Shown here piece after piece: positions 50,273-60,634 of a DNA stretch of 62,878 nt (the stretch's first letter is position 1; each line of letters begins with the position of its first letter). The notes beneath the pieces are model-generated. The model was given only the letters and a program-made list of their open reading frames with translations. It made no database searches and had not been told where the DNA came from. The DNA lies in contig VBOZ01000015.1 in the NCBI GenBank assembly GCA_005893305.1, positions 1 to 62,878 on the forward strand, given 5' to 3'. Made by a program: the position numbers and the translations under genes. Source of the DNA: Candidatus Eisenbacteria bacterium (GTDB taxonomy: Bacteria; Eisenbacteria; RBG-16-71-46; SZUA-252).

Positions 50273-53200
50273 ATGAGTCGTGCCTCGACAATCCGCCTGC
50301 TCGCCGTTTCGTGCACCCTCTTTGCGCTCGGCTCGGGGTGGGCAAGACCTTCCCGCGCGGCGGACATCTCCCTCACGCCTATCGGGAACCTCGACGTAGG
50401 CGGCTTCAACATGTCCGTGATCACATCCGATTTGAATCGGGACGGAGCGCTCGACCTCATAACTACCAGTTTGGAATTCAACCGCGCCTCGGTATTTCTC
50501 GGAAACGGAGACGGGACCTTCCGGGCTCGCTCGGATTACGCCACGGCCAACGAGCCCCACTCTGTCGCGGCCGGAGATCTGAACCTGGATGGGATTCCCG
50601 ATCTACTTGTCGCAAACGCCGGGGCGGGCACCGTATCCGTGCTGATTGGGGTTGGCGACGGCACGTTTGTCCGAGGCACGGACTTCGAAGCTTCGCCCAC
50701 CCCTTACTTCGTTGGGATCGCCGACGTGAATGGCGACGGACGGCCCGACGCGATTTGCGCGGTCTCCTCATCCATCTTTGTACGCCTCGGAAACGGCGAC
50801 GGGACCTTCGGGCCGCGGACGGACGTGGCTCTTGCCGGCTGCGCCGTCGGTGAAATCCAGGCTGCCGACTTGAACGGCGACGGCCGGCTCGACCTGGCGG
50901 TGACCAACAATTGCTCCGGGCTCGTTCACATTCTGCTTGGCCACGGAGACGGCTCCTTTCAACCGCCGCTGAGCTATTCCGCCGACGGTTCGCCACTGTC
51001 GTGCGACATCGGCGATCTGAACGGGGACGGTCGGCTCGACCTCGTCGTCTCCGGTGGCGCCGCGCTCGCCGTATCCGTGTTCCTCGGTAATGGGGACGGC
51101 ACCTTCCTCCCGAGAACGGACTATGGAACGGACGTCGCACCGATCAGCGTGAGAATCGGAGATTTCAACTCGGACACCATCCCGGATCTCGCGGTGACCA
51201 CCGGCGAAGGGCGTGCTCTCGACGTCCTCGCCGGTCGTGGAGACGGAACCTTCGATCCAAAACACGGTTACCCGACCGGTCCTGGCTACGCCCTCGCGGT
51301 TGGCGACTGGGACCGAGATGGACTCCTGGATCTTGCGGCCTCAACTTTTGACCAGATGGGGCGCCTTTCCTTGTTCCGCAACACGCCCGGGGTGCCGGTA
51401 GGAAACTCGCCGGTCCTTACGGCTCCTCCCTCGGCCAGCGGCAATGTCGGTACTGAGATTACATTCACGGTGTCCGCCGCCGATCCCGACGGCGAGCCGA
51501 TCACGGAGCTGGGGGTGAGCCCTCTTCTCCCGGGCGCCTCGTTCACGGTGGATCCCTCGCAAACCTCCGGCACGTTTCGATGGACGCCGACGTCGGCCGA
51601 GCTGGGTGGACCGTACCGAGTGGTCTTCTTCGCATACAACTCGCTCGCTACCTCGGCGAGGACCCATATCTACATTGGGCCGGGAGGATCCAATCGACCC
51701 CCAGTGCTGGACCCAATCGGAAGCAAGGCGGTAAACGAGCTCGCACCGTTGACCTTCACCGCGACCGCGACGGATCCCGATGCGGGCCAGACTCTGACTT
51801 TCTTGCTCTTCCTAGGCGCCCCGGCGGCTACGGGGGCGACCCTCAATGGGACGACCGGCGCGTTCAACTGGACTCCGACAGAGGCCCAGGGTCCGGGCTC
51901 GTACTCCATCACGGTCCAGGTGGTGGACAACGGAAGTCCGCAGCTCAACGCGGTAGAGGGGATCACGATCGCGGTGAACGAAGTGAACGTGGCACCGGTG
52001 CTCGCAGCGATCGGAAACAAGGCGGCGTGCGCTGTGGGTTCACCCTTTACGTTTACCGCGACGGCCACCGATACGGACGTTCCGGCAAACGTCTTGACGT
52101 TCTCGCTCGACCCCGGTGCTCCGTCGGGGGCGACGATCAACGGGTCGACAGGCGTCTTCAATTGGACGCCTTCCTCGCCAGGGAGCTTCCCGGTGACTAT
52201 TCGCGTGACGGACAACGGCACGCCACCGTTGAACGATTTCGAGGCCATCACGATCACTGTTAGCCCCGGGGAGCCGAATCAGCCCCCCGTTCTGAGCGCG
52301 ATCGGTAACAAGACGGTGAACGAGCTCACGCCGCTGGCATTCACCGTTGTGGCGTCGGATCCCGGTCCCTGTCCTGGCGAGACACTCACGTTCTCCCTGG
52401 ATGCTGGCGCGCCCGCTGGCGCCACGATCAATGGGTCGACCGGCGCGTTTACGTGGACCCCGGCGGAGGCGCAGGGGCCGGGAACCTTCCCGATCACGGT
52501 CCGCGTGACCGACAACGGAAGCCCGCCACTTAGCGACTTCGAGACGATCACGGTGACGGTAAACGAGGTGAACTCGGCCCCAGTGGTGGCGAATCCCGGG
52601 AACAAGTTCGTAACGGTGTTGTCGACCCTGGCGTTCACGGTCACGGCAACCGATTCGGACATTCCGGCCAACACGATTGCGTGGTCGTTAACGCTGGGGA
52701 CACCCGCGGCGACGGGCGCGACGATCAACTCTTCCACAGGGGCGTTCAGCTGGACGCCCACACAGGCACAGGCAAACCAGGTGTACCCGGTGACGATCAC
52801 GGCGACCGATAACGGGACCCCGGTGCTCAGCGGGTCGGCCGCGATCACAGTCACCGTCAACGAGGCGAATCAGGCGCCTGTCCTCTCCCCCATCGGGGGT
52901 AAATCCGGAACCGTTCAAGTACTCTTGACCTTTACGGCGACGGCGACGGACCCGAATGCGGGTCAGACGCTGACTTTCTCACTCGATGCAGGAGCCCCGG
53001 TCGGCGCCACGATGACGCCGGGCGGAACCTTCTCCTGGACGCCTGCTTGCGGGCAGAACGGGACCTTCCCGGTCACCATCCGCGTCACGGACAATGGCAT
53101 CCCCCCGCTGAGCGACTTCGAGGCGATCACGATCACGATTGGTGATCCGGGCAACCCGTCACCCGTGCTCGCGACCATCGGGAACAAGACAGTCAATGAA

Positions 53201-56200
53201 GGCTTCCTCTTGAGCTTTACCGCCACCGCGACGGATTCAGATGCTGGGGATGTGCTCACATTTTCATTGGACTCGGGTGCTCCGGCCGGTGCCGCCATCA
53301 ACGGAGCGTCTGGTGCCTTCACTTGGACGCCGACCGAGGCCCAAGGCCCAGGAAGTCATCCGATCACCGTTCGCGTGACGGATAACGGAGAGTGCCCGGC
53401 AACTGATTTCGAAACAATCACCGTAATGGTGAACGAGGTGAACGTGTCCCCGGTGCTCGCGCCGATAGGAAACAAAACCGCGTGCAGCGTTGGCGCTCCC
53501 TTTACTTTCACCGTGACGGCCACCGATGCCGACCTTCCGGCAAACGTCCTGACGTTCTCGCTCGATCCCGGCGCCCCGTCGGGAGCGGCGATCAATGCGT
53601 CTACGGGCGCCTTCAGCTGGACGCCCTCGACGACCGGGACCTTTCCGGTGACGGTTCGGGTGGCAGACAACGGCACACCGACTCTGGACGACTTCGAGGT
53701 TGTCACGATCACCGTAAGCCCCGGGGCGCCGAACCAGGCACCTGTTCTGGGAGCGATCGGAAACAAGACGGTGAACGAGCTTGCGGCGCTGGCATTCACC
53801 GCTGTCGCGTCCGACCCCGGTCCCTGTCCTGGAGAAACTCTCACCTTCTCGCTGGATGCCGGAGCGCCTATCGGCACGACGATCAATGGATCGACCGGCG
53901 TCTTTACCTGGACCCCGACGGAGGCCCAGGGCCCGGGCACCTTCCCGATCACAATCCGCGTAACGGACAACGGCAGCCCCCCGCTGAGCGACTTCGAGAC
54001 CATTCAGGTCACGGTGAACGAGTTCAACTCCGCGCCGGTGCTGGCGGCGATCGGGAACAAGACCGGCGCGATTGGCACTCCGACCACCTTCACGGCGACG
54101 GCGACCGATTCCGATATTCCCGCGAACACCCTGACTTTCTCGCTCGATGCGGGCGCTCCGCCGGGCGCCACAATTAACGCCGCAACGGGCGCCTTCAGCT
54201 GGACGCCCTCGACGACGGGGACCTTCCCGGTCACGATTCGCGTCACCGACAACGGCACCCCACCACTGAGTGACTTCGAGACGATCACGATCGTCATGGG
54301 TGGAGGTCCGGGCCAGGCGCCAGTTTTGGCAGCGATCGGGAATAAAACGGTGAATGAGCTCACGCTCCTGGCTTTCACCGCGACCGCAACGGATCCGAAC
54401 GCTGGGGAAGTCCTCACATTCTCGCTGGATGCCGGCGCGCCTGCCGGCACGACGATCAATGGGTCGAGCGGCGCCTTTGTCTGGACCCCGACCGAGGCAC
54501 AGGGCCCGGGGGTCTACCCGATCACGGTCCGCGTAACGGACAACGGCAGCCCGCCACTGAGCGATTTCGAGACGATTCAGGTCACGGTGAATGAGTTCAA
54601 CTCCCCGCCTGTGCTGACACCGATTGGGAACAAGAGCGGCACGATCGGCACGCCGGTCACCTTCACGGCGACCGCGACAGATGCCGACATCCCGGCGAAC
54701 ACGCTGACATTCTCGTTGGACGCCGGCGCGCCGCCGGGGGCCACGATTGGCGCATCGACGGGCGCCTTTAGTTGGACACCGACGAACAGCGGGACCGTTC
54801 CCGTAACGATTCGCGTCACCGACAACGGCACACCACCACTGAGTGACTTCGAGACGATCACGATCGTCCCGGCACTCGGTGCGGGCCAGGCGCCGGTTCT
54901 GTCACCGATCGGGAACAAAACGGTGAACGAGCTTGTGCTCCTCGCTTTCACCGCGACCGCAACGGATCCAAACGCTGGTGACGTTCTCACCTTCTCGCTG
55001 GATGCCGGCGCACCCGCCGGCGCGACCATCGGCGCATCGACGGGCGCATTCAGTTGGACCCCGTCGGAGGCGCAGGGTCCCGGGAGCCGCCCGATCACGG
55101 TCCGCGTGACGGACAACGGCAGCCCGCCCCAAAGCGATTTCGAGACGTTCACGGTCACCGTGAATGAGGTAAACCAGGCGCCGGTCCTGACTCCGATCGG
55201 CAACAAGACTGTGACTGCGGGGTCGACCCTTGCCCTCACGGCGACCGCGACCGACGCCGATATCCCGCCCAACACGCTCTGTTTCTCGCTCGATTCCGGT
55301 TCGCCGCCCGGGGCCACGATGACCTGCGGCACGGGCGCCTTCATGTGGACCCCGTCGCTGGGGCAAATCGGCCTCTACTCGATTACGGTGCGGGTCACGG
55401 ATAACGGGATCCCGCCCTTGAGCGATTCCGAGACGATCACGGTGCTGGTGAGTCAACCGGAGAGCAGGCCGACGGCCGATGCCGGCGGTCCCTACACAGG
55501 GATCGTGAATAGCCCGCTGAGTTTCGATGGGACTGGCTCGTCCGACCCGAACGGTGAGGTGCTCACGTACCTCTGGAATTTCGGCGACGGCAACACGGGC
55601 GCGGGGGCCACACCGATGCACATCTACACCGCCCCGGGAAACTACAACGTGGTCCTCCGCGTCACGGACCCGGAAGGTAACTTCGACGAAGACGTCACGA
55701 CCGTCACGATCCTGGCGGAGATCCCGGTGACCCTACTCCTCAAGAACGGCAAGTCGACGATCAACCTTGGCGATCCCGACGTCCTGAAGCTCGGTATCGA
55801 GGAGCTCGAACAGCCGTACGCGAGCGTCCTCGTCGGCACGGCCCGCCTCTCCACCGATTTCCCGAACGCTGGCACCGTCGCCGAGTGCTCGGCGGACACG
55901 AAGCACACCCGGATCGGGGACCTGGATCGAAACGGTGTGTCCGACCTCGAGCTCCGGTTCCCGATCGCTTGCATCAGGGATCTGTTCCGGAATACCCCCA
56001 ACAACAGCACCGTGAACCTCATCCTCACCGGGCAATTTCAGACGTCGACGGGTACGGTCCCACTCCGCGGCGTGAAGGCGGTCACGATCAAGAGGGGCGG
56101 CGGCGGTAGTGCCCCTGTCCTCGCCTACCCGAACCCATTCAATCCACAAGGCAGGCTCTCGTTCATGACCACGAGGCCGGGGAGCGCGAGCATTCAGCTA

Positions 56201-56383
56201 TTCGATCTTCAGGGACGCCTGGTGAGAACACTACTGCCGCGGCAATACCTAGGGCCGGGCGATCACGAGATCGCGATCGACGGTTTGAACGACCAGGGCA
56301 TCGGCCTTTCCTCTGGAATCTATTTCTACCGGGTTTCGACGGCGGACGGCGTCACGGAGGGATCGATCAGCGTATTGAAGTAG
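50273..56383 (+). CDS. Giant secreted protein: FG-GAP propeller, 14 Ig-like domains, PKD, PNPFNP-type C-terminal domain
   Basis: 2036 residues. After a signal peptide (1-29) come seven FG-GAP/VCBS blades (about 38-370), each with a Ca-loop such as DLNGDGRLDL and most with an LGNGDGTF strand. One divergent Ig-like domain (about 380-475) and thirteen closely related Ig-like domains of ~97 residues (about 477-1730; hallmark PVLxxIGNKTVNEL...FTATATD) follow. PKD begins near 1733, and the C-terminal YPNPFNPQGRL module near 1949. The last ~400 residues are almost the same as those of the preceding gene product. GGAGG lies six bases before the ATG, 62 bases after the first gene, so the two are probably cotranscribed. 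Propeller plus stalk plus anchor suggests a surface-displayed adhesin. Confidence 0.9.
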   Translation: MSRASTIRLLAVSCTLFALGSGWARPSRAADISLTPIGNLDVGGFNMSVITSDLNRDGALDLITTSLEFNRASVFLGNGDGTFRARSDYATANEPHSVAAGDLNLDGIPDLLVANAGAGTVSVLIGVGDGTFVRGTDFEASPTPYFVGIADVNGDGRPDAICAVSSSIFVRLGNGDGTFGPRTDVALAGCAVGEIQAADLNGDGRLDLAVTNNCSGLVHILLGHGDGSFQPPLSYSADGSPLSCDIGDLNGDGRLDLVVSGGAALAVSVFLGNGDGTFLPRTDYGTDVAPISVRIGDFNSDTIPDLAVTTGEGRALDVLAGRGDGTFDPKHGYPTGPGYALAVGDWDRDGLLDLAASTFDQMGRLSLFRNTPGVPVGNSPVLTAPPSASGNVGTEITFTVSAADPDGEPITELGVSPLLPGASFTVDPSQTSGTFRWTPTSAELGGPYRVVFFAYNSLATSARTHIYIGPGGSNRPPVLDPIGSKAVNELAPLTFTATATDPDAGQTLTFLLFLGAPAATGATLNGTTGAFNWTPTEAQGPGSYSITVQVVDNGSPQLNAVEGITIAVNEVNVAPVLAAIGNKAACAVGSPFTFTATATDTDVPANVLTFSLDPGAPSGATINGSTGVFNWTPSSPGSFPVTIRVTDNGTPPLNDFEAITITVSPGEPNQPPVLSAIGNKTVNELTPLAFTVVASDPGPCPGETLTFSLDAGAPAGATINGSTGAFTWTPAEAQGPGTFPITVRVTDNGSPPLSDFETITVTVNEVNSAPVVANPGNKFVTVLSTLAFTVTATDSDIPANTIAWSLTLGTPAATGATINSSTGAFSWTPTQAQANQVYPVTITATDNGTPVLSGSAAITVTVNEANQAPVLSPIGGKSGTVQVLLTFTATATDPNAGQTLTFSLDAGAPVGATMTPGGTFSWTPACGQNGTFPVTIRVTDNGIPPLSDFEAITITIGDPGNPSPVLATIGNKTVNEGFLLSFTATATDSDAGDVLTFSLDSGAPAGAAINGASGAFTWTPTEAQGPGSHPITVRVTDNGECPATDFETITVMVNEVNVSPVLAPIGNKTACSVGAPFTFTVTATDADLPANVLTFSLDPGAPSGAAINASTGAFSWTPSTTGTFPVTVRVADNGTPTLDDFEVVTITVSPGAPNQAPVLGAIGNKTVNELAALAFTAVASDPGPCPGETLTFSLDAGAPIGTTINGSTGVFTWTPTEAQGPGTFPITIRVTDNGSPPLSDFETIQVTVNEFNSAPVLAAIGNKTGAIGTPTTFTATATDSDIPANTLTFSLDAGAPPGATINAATGAFSWTPSTTGTFPVTIRVTDNGTPPLSDFETITIVMGGGPGQAPVLAAIGNKTVNELTLLAFTATATDPNAGEVLTFSLDAGAPAGTTINGSSGAFVWTPTEAQGPGVYPITVRVTDNGSPPLSDFETIQVTVNEFNSPPVLTPIGNKSGTIGTPVTFTATATDADIPANTLTFSLDAGAPPGATIGASTGAFSWTPTNSGTVPVTIRVTDNGTPPLSDFETITIVPALGAGQAPVLSPIGNKTVNELVLLAFTATATDPNAGDVLTFSLDAGAPAGATIGASTGAFSWTPSEAQGPGSRPITVRVTDNGSPPQSDFETFTVTVNEVNQAPVLTPIGNKTVTAGSTLALTATATDADIPPNTLCFSLDSGSPPGATMTCGTGAFMWTPSLGQIGLYSITVRVTDNGIPPLSDSETITVLVSQPESRPTADAGGPYTGIVNSPLSFDGTGSSDPNGEVLTYLWNFGDGNTGAGATPMHIYTAPGNYNVVLRVTDPEGNFDEDVTTVTILAEIPVTLLLKNGKSTINLGDPDVLKLGIEELEQPYASVLVGTARLSTDFPNAGTVAECSADTKHTRIGDLDRNGVSDLELRFPIACIRDLFRNTPNNSTVNLILTGQFQTSTGTVPLRGVKAVTIKRGGGGSAPVLAYPNPFNPQGRLSFMTTRPGSASIQLFDLQGRLVRTLLPRQYLGPGDHEIAIDGLNDQGIGLSSGIYFYRVSTADGVTEGSISVLK
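51702..55460 (+). repeat. Tandem array of thirteen ~290-bp Ig-domain repeats
   Basis: Thirteen in-frame units encode Ig-like domains. Units 2-3 and 7-8 match as pairs (ACxVG type then PGPCPG type), and units 9-10 and 11-12 match as pairs (GxIGT type then DPNAG type), pointing to a two-domain unit of about 575-580 bp that was copied. Confidence 0.85.
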
Positions 56384-58420: not shown

Positions 58421-58507
58421 TGGTGCCGGAGGGGGGAATCGAACCCCCACGGGATTGCTCCCACGGGATTTTGAGTCCCGCGCGTCTGCCAATTTCACCA
58501 CTCCGGC
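58421..58507 (-). tRNA. tRNA-Leu(CAA)
   Basis: 87-nt class II tRNA: acceptor GCCGGAG/CTCCGGC, discriminator A, encoded CCA, and a long variable arm (GGGAGCAATCCC). The anticodon stem CGGGA/TCCCG encloses CTCAAAA, giving anticodon CAA. A minus-strand TATCAT at 58536-58531 could be its -10. Confidence 0.95.
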
Positions 58508-58591
58508 GCCTTAACCCCTTGAATTTCTCGATGATAGCAGACCAGTCCGACCGACCCCAGTCCCCGACCACCCCATCGACCACAATTCCAA

Positions 58592-58621
58592 TTGACAACA
58601 GGCCAGTCGTTTAGGCATAAT
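58592..58621 (+). promoter_or_regulatory. Sigma-70-type promoter of the intergenic RNA
   Basis: TTGACA (58592-58597) and CATAAT (58616-58621) are spaced by 18 bp. The -35 is overlapped by the palindrome CAATT-CC-AATTG (58583-58594), a possible operator. No plus-strand protein gene follows before the terminator at 58822. Confidence 0.6.
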
Positions 58622-58654
58622 ACTTCCTGCAATTCGGAAGGCAACCCCCCGCCC

Positions 58655-58682
58655 GGAACTTTTCGCTCCTTCTAGCGTCTAA
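58655..58682 (+). promoter_or_regulatory. ECF (sigma-E-type) promoter of the intergenic RNA
   Basis: GGAACTT (58655-58661), 16 bp, TCTAA (58678-58682): an exact match to the sigma-E/RpoE-type consensus. Transcription would begin near 58690. The gene for the cognate ECF sigma factor is not in the window. Confidence 0.6.
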
Positions 58683-58689
58683 AGCTCTG

Positions 58690-58860
58690 ACGACAGGGAG
58701 TGAAGTTCCCTGTAATTCGCGTCTCCCTAGATGGCTTGACCCGGCGTTCGCCGGTGGGTTTCACAAGGCCTCAACAAGTTATTTAGGCACGGTCTGCACG
58801 GGGAACTTCCATATTCATAGACGGGTGGCGGGGCTCAGGTCACGCCACCCGGTTTTCTTT
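58690..58860 (+). ncRNA. Candidate small regulatory RNA with own promoters and terminator
   Basis: The 357-bp gap 58508-58864 holds no convincing protein gene. From the ECF-type start (~58690) a ~170-nt RNA would carry a hairpin ACAGGGA/TCCCTGT (58693-58699 with 58707-58713), a second hairpin CCGGC-GTTC-GCCGG (58741-58754), and an intrinsic terminator. From the upstream sigma-70 promoter it would be ~230 nt. It does not match 6S, tmRNA, SRP RNA or RNase P RNA by the features I know. A 28-codon frame (GTG 58700 to TAG 58786) has no usable Shine-Dalgarno and lies partly in the first hairpin. Promoter type and architecture resemble sigma-E-controlled sRNAs such as RybB and MicA, but the sequence does not. 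Confidence 0.5.
58822..58860 (+). terminator. Intrinsic terminator of the intergenic RNA
   Basis: A perfect 9-bp stem CGGGTGGCG/CGCCACCCG (58822-58830 with 58843-58851) encloses a 12-base loop and is followed by GTTTTCTTT. On the minus strand the hairpin lies just after the phosphatase gene, so it could serve both directions, but the T-tract is on the plus strand. Confidence 0.8.
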
Positions 58861-58864
58861 GCCC

Positions 58865-60634
58865 TCAGGCCGGCAGCCCCTTGATCGCGACGATCGTTAG
58901 GTCGTCGTCCTGCTCCCGGTCCCGGAAGGCGCGCACGGTCTCCCAGATCCCGCGCACCACCGTCGCGGCCGACTCCCCCTTTCGGGCCCGGATCACCTCC
59001 CGCAGGCGGTCCTCGCCGAAGAAATCCCCTTCGGAGTTCATGGCCTCGGTCACGCCATCCGTATAGAGAACGAGTAGATCCCCGGCCGGAATCTCGACCT
59101 GGCGCTCCTTGTAACTCGCCGCCTCGAAAGTCCCGAGCAATGGCCCCGTCGAATCGAGAATCTCGAAGCGATCGGCGCCCGCCCGATACAGAAATGCCGG
59201 GTTGTGCCCCGCGTTCACGTACGTGTATCGGCGGTTGGCAATGTCGAGCACGCCGTAGATTGCCGTGACAAAGCGGTCCGGCTCCACGCTCTCCCAGAGG
59301 AGCTTGTTCACCTTCGCGAAGACCGTCTTGATCGCGTAGTTGTTTCGAATCTCCGCGATCAAGGAAGCGCGGAAGGAAGCCATGATCAGCGCGGCGGCGA
59401 TCCCCTTCCCGGACACGTCGCCGATCACGATCCCCAAATGCTGGTCGGCGATCCGGATGTAGTCGTAGTAGTCGCCGCCGACCAGCTCCGAGGAGTAGTT
59501 CGCGCCCGCGATGTCGAAGTGCGGAATCTCGGGATTCCGCTCGGGCAGGAACGTCCTCTGAATCCGCTGGCCGATCGCGACCTCGCCCTCGAGGCGGCGC
59601 TTTTCCAGCACCTCCTCGTGGAGCCGGGTGCGCTCGATCGCCACCGCAGCCTGGGCGGCGAAGGCCATCAGCAGCTCCATGTCCTCATCCTCGTACGCCT
59701 CGGGCTCGTCCGATTCCAAGTTGAAGGCGCCGATCACCTCGGTTCCGATCCGGATCGGGGCCACCATCTCGCTCCGCGTCTGGTCGCGCGCGTTCACGTA
59801 TCGCGGATCGGTCGTCACGTCCGAGACGATCACGCCCTGCCCGGTCTTCACGCTCCACCCGATCAGCCCCTTCCCGACCTTGAGCCGGACCGCATCGTCG
59901 CGCTCCGAGTCGTATCCCCGGATGGTCTGGCGCGTGATCCACTGCGTCTGCTTGTCGACGATGTAGATTCCGGCGGCGTCGTAGCGGACGACCTGGAAGA
60001 CGAGATCGAGGATCTGCTCGAGGAGGCGGCTCATCTCCAGGCTGGCCGAGATCTTCGTGCCCAGCTCGAGGAGGAGCTGGTTCTGCACCCTCTCCCGCGT
60101 CGCCTCGGCGTAGACGCGCGCATTCCCCAGGGCGATCGCCAGCTGGATCGCCAGCTCGCCGAGGAACGCGACTTCTTCCTCGGGCGGCGGCACGCGGTCC
60201 AGCTTCTGGAGCACCGCGACGCCGAGCGGCTCCCCGCCGCGGCGGAGCGGTAGCGTCAGGATGCCCTGAAGGAGGGAGAGCGGACGACCGCCCCACTCGT
60301 CGGGGACGTAGAGCGCCTCGCTCAGCTCGGGGCGGTAGACCGGGGCCTCTTCCTGAAGCGCACGACCAGCAAACCCCTCGCCCACGTGGAGCCGAGGGCG
60401 GCGACCGACGACCGGCGTATTGGCCAGCGTCCACGGGAAGAGGAACTTGCCGCGGGAATCGAGAACCCAGAGGGAAAACTCCGAGAACGAGCCGGCGCCG
60501 ATGAGGAGATCCCGCGCGCGGCGCGCGAGGGCATCCCGCTTCAACAGCGCAAGCTCGCGGGAGGCGCGCACGAGGAAGCGCAGCCGCGCCTCTTCGGTGC
60601 GGACGCCTTCGCGCAGCGTCGTTTCCCCGGTCAT
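58865..60634 (-). CDS. GAF-GAF-SpoIIE/RsbU-type serine phosphatase
   Basis: 589 residues. Two GAF-like domains (about 20-180 and 195-345), a short coiled linker (TRLHEEVLEKRRLEGEVAIG) and a C-terminal PP2C/SpoIIE domain. The metal motifs are intact: SSELVGGDYYDY, VIGDVSGKGIAAALIM, LVLYTDGVTEA and QDDDLTIVAIK. Such enzymes dephosphorylate anti-anti-sigma factors (partner switching) after sensing a GAF ligand. No STAS or HPK-type gene is in the window. ATG 60634 overlaps the stop of the metallopeptidase gene (ATGA), so the two proteins are made together. Confidence 0.92.
   Translation of the reverse strand: MTGETTLREGVRTEEARLRFLVRASRELALLKRDALARRARDLLIGAGSFSEFSLWVLDSRGKFLFPWTLANTPVVGRRPRLHVGEGFAGRALQEEAPVYRPELSEALYVPDEWGGRPLSLLQGILTLPLRRGGEPLGVAVLQKLDRVPPPEEEVAFLGELAIQLAIALGNARVYAEATRERVQNQLLLELGTKISASLEMSRLLEQILDLVFQVVRYDAAGIYIVDKQTQWITRQTIRGYDSERDDAVRLKVGKGLIGWSVKTGQGVIVSDVTTDPRYVNARDQTRSEMVAPIRIGTEVIGAFNLESDEPEAYEDEDMELLMAFAAQAAVAIERTRLHEEVLEKRRLEGEVAIGQRIQRTFLPERNPEIPHFDIAGANYSSELVGGDYYDYIRIADQHLGIVIGDVSGKGIAAALIMASFRASLIAEIRNNYAIKTVFAKVNKLLWESVEPDRFVTAIYGVLDIANRRYTYVNAGHNPAFLYRAGADRFEILDSTGPLLGTFEAASYKERQVEIPAGDLLVLYTDGVTEAMNSEGDFFGEDRLREVIRARKGESAATVVRGIWETVRAFRDREQDDDLTIVAIKGLPA

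Follow-up and report, generated by a model that had tools for sequence, protein, structure and literature searches.

The 357-nt intergenic gap at positions 58508-58864 of the window (the whole 62,878-nt stretch of Candidatus Eisenbacteria DNA analysed here) carries a conserved, non-coding small RNA gene, a conclusion that the data support well. The gene is stand-alone, lies on the plus strand and ends in an intrinsic terminator. The first-pass annotation had proposed such a gene with an ECF/sigma-E-type promoter, and synteny, promoters and terminator bear this proposal out. Comparison by covariance models gives good reason to count it among a family of short RNAs (~115-nt core) that share the closing stem of 6S RNA. 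This group of short 6S-related RNAs, with its sub-types having differing kinds of promoter in Eisenbacteria, is apparently undescribed.

Genomic setting and promoters

The gap separates a tRNA-Leu(CAA) gene (58421-58507, minus strand) from a convergent minus-strand gene (58865-60530) for a phosphatase, in which GAF and RsbU/SpoIIE-like PP2C domains were read from the sequence; the stop of this gene lies at 58865, and 60530 is not an assigned start. The tRNA gene is near the RNA in six of the eight loci of the window's own group (group C, as defined below), and comparison of the loci showed that the same GAF/PP2C phosphatase gene adjoins the RNA in group C relatives. Phosphatases of the RsbU/SpoIIE type usually feed sigma-factor partner switching, a role that may or may not relate to the RNA. 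Elsewhere in the window, positions 50273-56383 (plus strand) encode a secreted protein of 2036 aa, in which cadherin/Ig-like repeats are numerous and the C-terminal domain is sorting-like.

When 59 related genomes were searched at the DNA level, homologues were found, with synteny, in seven further genomes, all from the window's GTDB family, and in none outside it. Group C is present in eight of the nine genomes of the family, the one that lacks it being 78% complete. A genome of another family (G009) has a copy of related sequence, in which the sigma-70-like site is weak and GGAACTT is not accompanied by TCTAA.

Two promoters precede the RNA on the plus strand. The distal one is a sigma-70 promoter, TTGACA-N18-CATAAT, at 58592-58621 (TTGACA 58592-58597, CATAAT 58616-58621); it scored 11/12, and shuffles of the region gave 0.4 as the number of promoter-like sites expected by chance. 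The proximal one is a predicted ECF/sigma-E-type promoter, GGAACTTTT-N13-GTCTAA (equivalent to GGAACTT-N16-TCTAA), at 58655-58682 (GGAACTT 58655-58661, TCTAA 58678-58682), whose boxes are identical in seven genomes. The first-pass annotation had listed both motifs and the terminator, and all three were found in place.

Both promoters, at exact spacings of 18 and 16, occur in all seven copies that retain the upstream part, the window copy included, so that the spacing to which the first-pass annotation had given weight is kept throughout. The six relatives have TTGAC[AT]-N18-TATA[AC]T, the window copy instead having CATAAT. Across the seven genomes, identity was 0.92 and 0.87 in the sigma-70 boxes and 1.0 and 1.0 in the ECF-type boxes, compared with 0.33 in the inter-promoter linker, 0.56 in the ECF spacer and 0.55 in the leader before the stem; linker lengths also vary. 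Near-invariant boxes at constant spacings, set among diverged and length-variable linkers, argue for two independent tandem promoters. The exact string GGAACTT-N16-TCTAA occurs once per genome, at the RNA locus only, in six of the seven genomes; in the seventh the copy is cut by a contig end.

Structure of the predicted RNA

With its ends taken from the promoter and terminator positions, the RNA predicted from the proximal promoter spans 58690-58862 (plus strand, ~170 nt), and that from the distal promoter would be ~235 nt long. The 6S-like core, at 58697-58813 of the plus strand, was delimited with covariance models R2 (E 9.3e-20) and R3 (E 2.9e-16), E-values that are not independent, since the training sets of both models contain the window sequence.

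Fold and alignment together define a closing stem with the strands GAAGUUCCCUGU (58702-58713) and ACGGGGAACUUC (58798-58809), all elements described here being on the plus strand. In one relative (G007) this stem shows a compensatory change from A-U to G-C, giving AGGUUCC/GGAACCU. Within it lies an internal-loop/short-helix motif whose 5' side (AUUC, G, CGU; 58715-58722) covaries with its 3' side (ACG, GUCU; 58789-58795), followed by an inner, P2-like arm formed by CCUAGAUGGCUUG (58726-58738) and CAAGUUAUUUAGG (58775-58787), again supported by fold and alignment. There are two apical hairpins: CCGGC-GUUC-GCCGG (58741-58754), which is the best-conserved part of group C, and GGGUUUCACAAGGCCU (58756-58771), seen in fold and alignment. 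The intrinsic terminator (58822-58860) has a 9-bp stem with the arms CGGGTGGCG (58822-58830) and CGCCACCCG (58843-58851), extended by an inner stem and followed by GTTTTCTTT, the 3' arm leading into G-TTTTCTTT. Other group C loci likewise have a terminator hairpin 3' of the core, with changed sequence.

The first-pass annotation had described two hairpins upstream of the terminator. A structured region is indeed present, but its shape is rather that of a long closing stem with an internal loop and a three-way junction. For the predicted RNA the folding energy is -95.7 kcal/mol (z = -3.4), and none of 200 shuffles folded as well. The structure is also conserved in relatives, as had been anticipated, in the form of covarying helices. 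Among 17 sequences, two-sided changes occur in 8 of 21 pairs (29 cells vs 12.5 in shuffles). With 32 sequences the figure is 14 of 21 pairs and 77 cells vs 30.5 in shuffles, a value that none of 500 shuffles reached; in this alignment, columns 19-109 appear as A-U, G-C, C-G and G-U, and columns 20-108 as U-A, C-G, G-C and U-G.

That the gap holds a short protein gene instead is extremely improbable. Although a 28-codon frame is open from a GTG near 58700 in the window's own genome, its frame, length and start differ in relatives, and the indels there are not multiples of three. The 28-codon frame is thus not conserved, and the earlier statement that the gap has no plus-strand protein gene holds.

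The wider family and its relation to 6S RNA

A covariance search of related genomes, which the first-pass annotation had proposed as a check, returned related RNAs in group C and beyond. R1, a model made from group C copies alone, picked up RNAs in two further families of the class, and it detected the group B RNAs of another family with E-values of 7.5e-6 to 1e-3 per genome. Searched with a pattern taken from the conserved core, 85,000 GTDB genomes gave 12 credible matches; 11 are named Candidatus Eisenbacteria, and the twelfth, on a contig named Latescibacterota, is the G008 locus that was already in the comparison set. Four matches outside Eisenbacteria (two in Clostridia, one in Nocardiopsis, one in Pseudonocardia) were dismissed as chance, the model giving no match. 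Family members were found in 37 of 47 Eisenbacteria genomes with R2 and in 39 of 47 with R3, often two or three per genome. R3 also matches in six genomes classified outside the class, one of which has a contig recorded as Candidatus Eisenbacteria.

R3 identifies three members in the window's own genome: the window copy (contig C15, plus strand), G000:C8:14178-14292 and G000:C12:69819-69937 (both minus strand). The C8 copy (L109) is a group B paralogue with a sigma-54-like promoter (GGGAACACCGGTTGCA), a 6S-like closing stem and an RF00013 score of 26.3 bits. The C12 copy (L123) is a group A paralogue with TTGACA-N18-TAATCT directly upstream and an apical motif unlike those of groups B and C.

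When the 70 retrieved copies were sorted by apical motif and, separately, by promoter, apical type and promoter class matched near-perfectly across groups A, B and C. Group A, which has a CCUAGUC-type motif, carries a sigma-70 promoter in 17 of 19 copies, with TTGACA and a fair -10 box immediately before the RNA. Group B, with a GCUGAU motif, carries the sigma-54 -24/-12 element GGCAC-N5-TTGC in 35 of 39 (shuffle rate 4%), and one of the four exceptions (G015) sits at a contig end. In group C, to which the window copy belongs, the tandem of sigma-70 and ECF-type promoters is present in 7/7. The closing stem is nearly invariant in sequence and the apical domains are wholly different between the three groups; the distance from the ECF-type site to the stem in group C is about that from promoter to stem in group A and in many group B copies. 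The correspondence hints that every RNA may be tailored to its own sigma factor, either to the condition or to the polymerase form that goes with that factor.

Loss and replacement of sigma-54 in the window's family was considered and rejected, since rpoN is found in nearly all genomes. Group B RNAs, all with sigma-54-type elements, are also found in genomes classified outside the window's phylum (G115, G145, G181, G256 and G283; loci L116-L118, L120 and L121), and the sigma-54 group is therefore wider than one phylum. In many group B copies of family f8 (L047-L049) the core is followed, ~40-140 nt further downstream, by a second, strongly conserved hairpin (GGGCCC...GGGCCC). Ahead of the sigma-54 promoter these loci also share a conserved TCGCAA/CATGCGGGTG element, possibly an enhancer-binding site.

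The closing stem of 6S RNA was recovered in both directions of comparison. The Rfam model of 6S, RF00013, aligns with group B copies end to end, at 34.1, 32.7, 29.2, 26.3 and 26.0 bits, all of these scores being below the Rfam gathering threshold of 46.4 bits. The alignment covers the closing stem, the next helix and the pRNA-start region (CUGAGCUGAU vs CuGAgCCgA). Conversely, R3, which was built from groups A-C, recovers canonical 6S genes with both ends exact (best E 1.7e-6); the search with R2 did not find them. The window core, at ~115 nt, does not show the 6S rod of ~180-200 nt, whose central bubble is large and whose apical arm is long. RF00013 gave no match to the window copy at E<=10, and the link of this copy to 6S runs through group B and the common closing stem, which weighs against a 6S-like reading. 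For this reason we name the window RNA 6S-like, on the strength of R1, R2, R3 and the closing stem in common, and do not assign it to 6S RNA itself.

Among the other Rfam families, a single meaningless lncRNA match was obtained at the window at E<=10, and no family above threshold was found that covers these RNAs. The possibility that the window locus encodes canonical 6S RNA was rejected. The canonical 6S gene of this genome is a separate locus, G000:C25:18431-18612 (L012), directly downstream of a zapA-like gene, an arrangement noted for Eisenbacteria, and RF00013 has no match at the window locus.

Function, alternatives and precedents

6S RNA controls RNA polymerase, and its large single-stranded central bubble imitates an open promoter. 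On balance we lean towards the window RNA being a 6S-like RNA that acts on RNA polymerase and is made by both housekeeping and envelope-type sigma factors. Its transcription and its function (polymerase binding, stress induction) we infer as follows. The RNA would bind RNA polymerase, as holoenzyme or core, via its closing-stem side and modulate initiation in the manner of 6S. The sigma-70 promoter would provide a basal level of RNA, and the ECF-type promoter would raise that level when an envelope-type sigma factor is active. In that condition the RNA would act by adjusting how polymerase is allocated, and not by Hfq-dependent pairing with porin mRNAs. So short a form is mechanistically possible, because in B. 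subtilis both polymerase binding and the templating of pRNA are retained by 6S derivatives of 78-82 nt (PMC8876501). On the other hand, the window RNA is without the large single-stranded central bubble of 6S, and no further clear target of the ECF-type motif was found in the genome; both points weigh against this reading.

More tentatively, Eisenbacteria and some relatives may possess a sigma-matched set of mini-6S RNAs, one each made by sigma-70, by sigma-54 and, in the window's family, by an ECF sigma factor. The apical domain of each would suit that polymerase form, so that each sigma factor could, by way of its own RNA, feed back on polymerase or redirect it. We regard this extension as possible and somewhat doubtful.

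The near-invariance of the closing stem, the part shared with 6S, could also mean that it is a processing or protein-binding handle only, and that the RNA is a sponge for another protein or part of an RNP unrelated to polymerase. The complete difference of the apical domains between groups A, B and C and the missing central bubble agree with such a role. We nevertheless think it rather unlikely, given that the alignment of group B to RF00013 takes in not only the closing stem but also the next helix and the pRNA-start region, and that members correlate with sigma factor classes. A different explanation concerns the proximal promoter: GGAACTT...TCTAA would not be a promoter, transcription would be by sigma-70 only, and GGAACUU in the longer transcript would pair with the closing strand GAAGUUCC as a switch. 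In the alignment, GGAACUUU can indeed pair with GAAGUUCC in all seven sequences, and the motif is without another genomic copy. This explanation is unlikely in our judgement: it does not account for the conservation of GTCTAA and of its spacing, the closing stem persists in 7/7 when the long transcript is folded to minimum energy, and the promoters of groups A and B lie similarly close to the stem. Mimicry of an ECF -35 box by GGAACUU in the closing stem was also considered and set aside, because its orientation is wrong and the -10 side would fall outside the stem.

The first-pass annotation had read the locus as an envelope-stress sRNA, that is, a trans-acting RNA that base-pairs with the help of Hfq in the manner of RybB and MicA. 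The promoter fits well, since GGAACTTTT coincides with the -35 motif published for sigma-E and GTCTAA differs from the -10 motif GTCAAA at a single base (PMC1804206); the RNA has a terminator, as sigma-E sRNAs do, and the secreted protein encoded nearby is of envelope type. Several findings make this reading improbable all the same. Hfq (PF17209) was detected in none of 46 Eisenbacteria genomes, control genomes being positive; the RNA is mostly closed, with conserved helices, a long 5' stem and no free 5' seed; and its relatives are under sigma-70 and sigma-54. Nor does any second site of the sigma-E-type motif rise above control. GGAACTT-N16-TCTAA was not found elsewhere in the own genome even with one mismatch (the reversed-pattern control gave 9), and in six relatives the sites with one mismatch were not above the reversed-pattern control. 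With the ECF-type site occurring once per genome, no sigma-E regulon is visible. The motif was likewise not found upstream of the genome's own ECF sigma genes, and ECF autoregulation through it was rejected on that ground. What survives of the envelope-stress proposal is the conserved sigma-E-type promoter element; the analogy with RybB and MicA is not supported, in view of the lack of Hfq and of a regulon, the closed 5' stem and the 6S-like relatives.

Structured RNAs stated as known to bind bacterial RNA polymerase are of two types, 6S and Ms1 (PMC11077062). If the 6S-like reading is right, a shortened family split into promoter-class sub-types would suggest that 6S-type control extends beyond the housekeeping holoenzyme. 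It also makes a question testable, namely whether a 6S closing stem with another apical domain binds sigma-54 or ECF-sigma polymerase. It would also give this phylum a first family of regulatory RNAs, for which covariance models now exist: a literature search on Candidatus Eisenbacteria turned up no described regulatory RNA, in agreement with the earlier remark that such RNAs are little described there, and in the library searched no paper covered both Eisenbacteria and small RNA.

Like the window RNA, RybB and MicA of enterobacteria combine a sigma-E-type promoter with an intrinsic terminator. The sigma-E motifs of rybB and micA are GGAACTTTT and GTCAAA, the former exact in the window and the latter replaced by GTCTAA. 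Those RNAs are 70-80 nt long, depend on Hfq and pair with omp mRNAs, whereas the window RNA is longer and closed and belongs to a genome without Hfq (PMC1804206).

Resemblance to 6S RNA (SsrS, RF00013) is centred on the closing stem, for which the consensus is CUCCCUGCGGUGUUCG with CGGCAC-CGCGGGGAG and the window copy has GUUCCCUGUAAUUCGCG with ACGGUCUGCACGGGGAAC; in group B the closing stem is nearly identical to that of 6S, and the next helix and the pRNA-start region are kept as well. Both the window RNA and 6S are free-standing and terminated. Unlike 6S, however, the window RNA has a core of ~115 rather than ~180 nt, with small hairpins in place of the terminal arm and central bubble.

The nearest precedents are sibling 6S RNAs (PMC4211561) and Ms1 (PMC4191392, PMC9130861). 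Siblings such as 6S-1 and 6S-2 of B. subtilis and 6S1 and 6S2 of Legionella likewise provide several 6S-type RNAs per genome that differ in expression, but they are described as having the conserved 6S structure in common (PMC4211561), whereas the present family comprises three truncated forms whose apical domains are unrelated and whose promoters are of three types. Ms1, which is known from Actinobacteria and is set beside the window RNA by description rather than by sequence comparison, also has a 6S-related shape without being 6S, and it offers a precedent for binding of such an RNA to the polymerase core (PMC4191392, PMC9130861).
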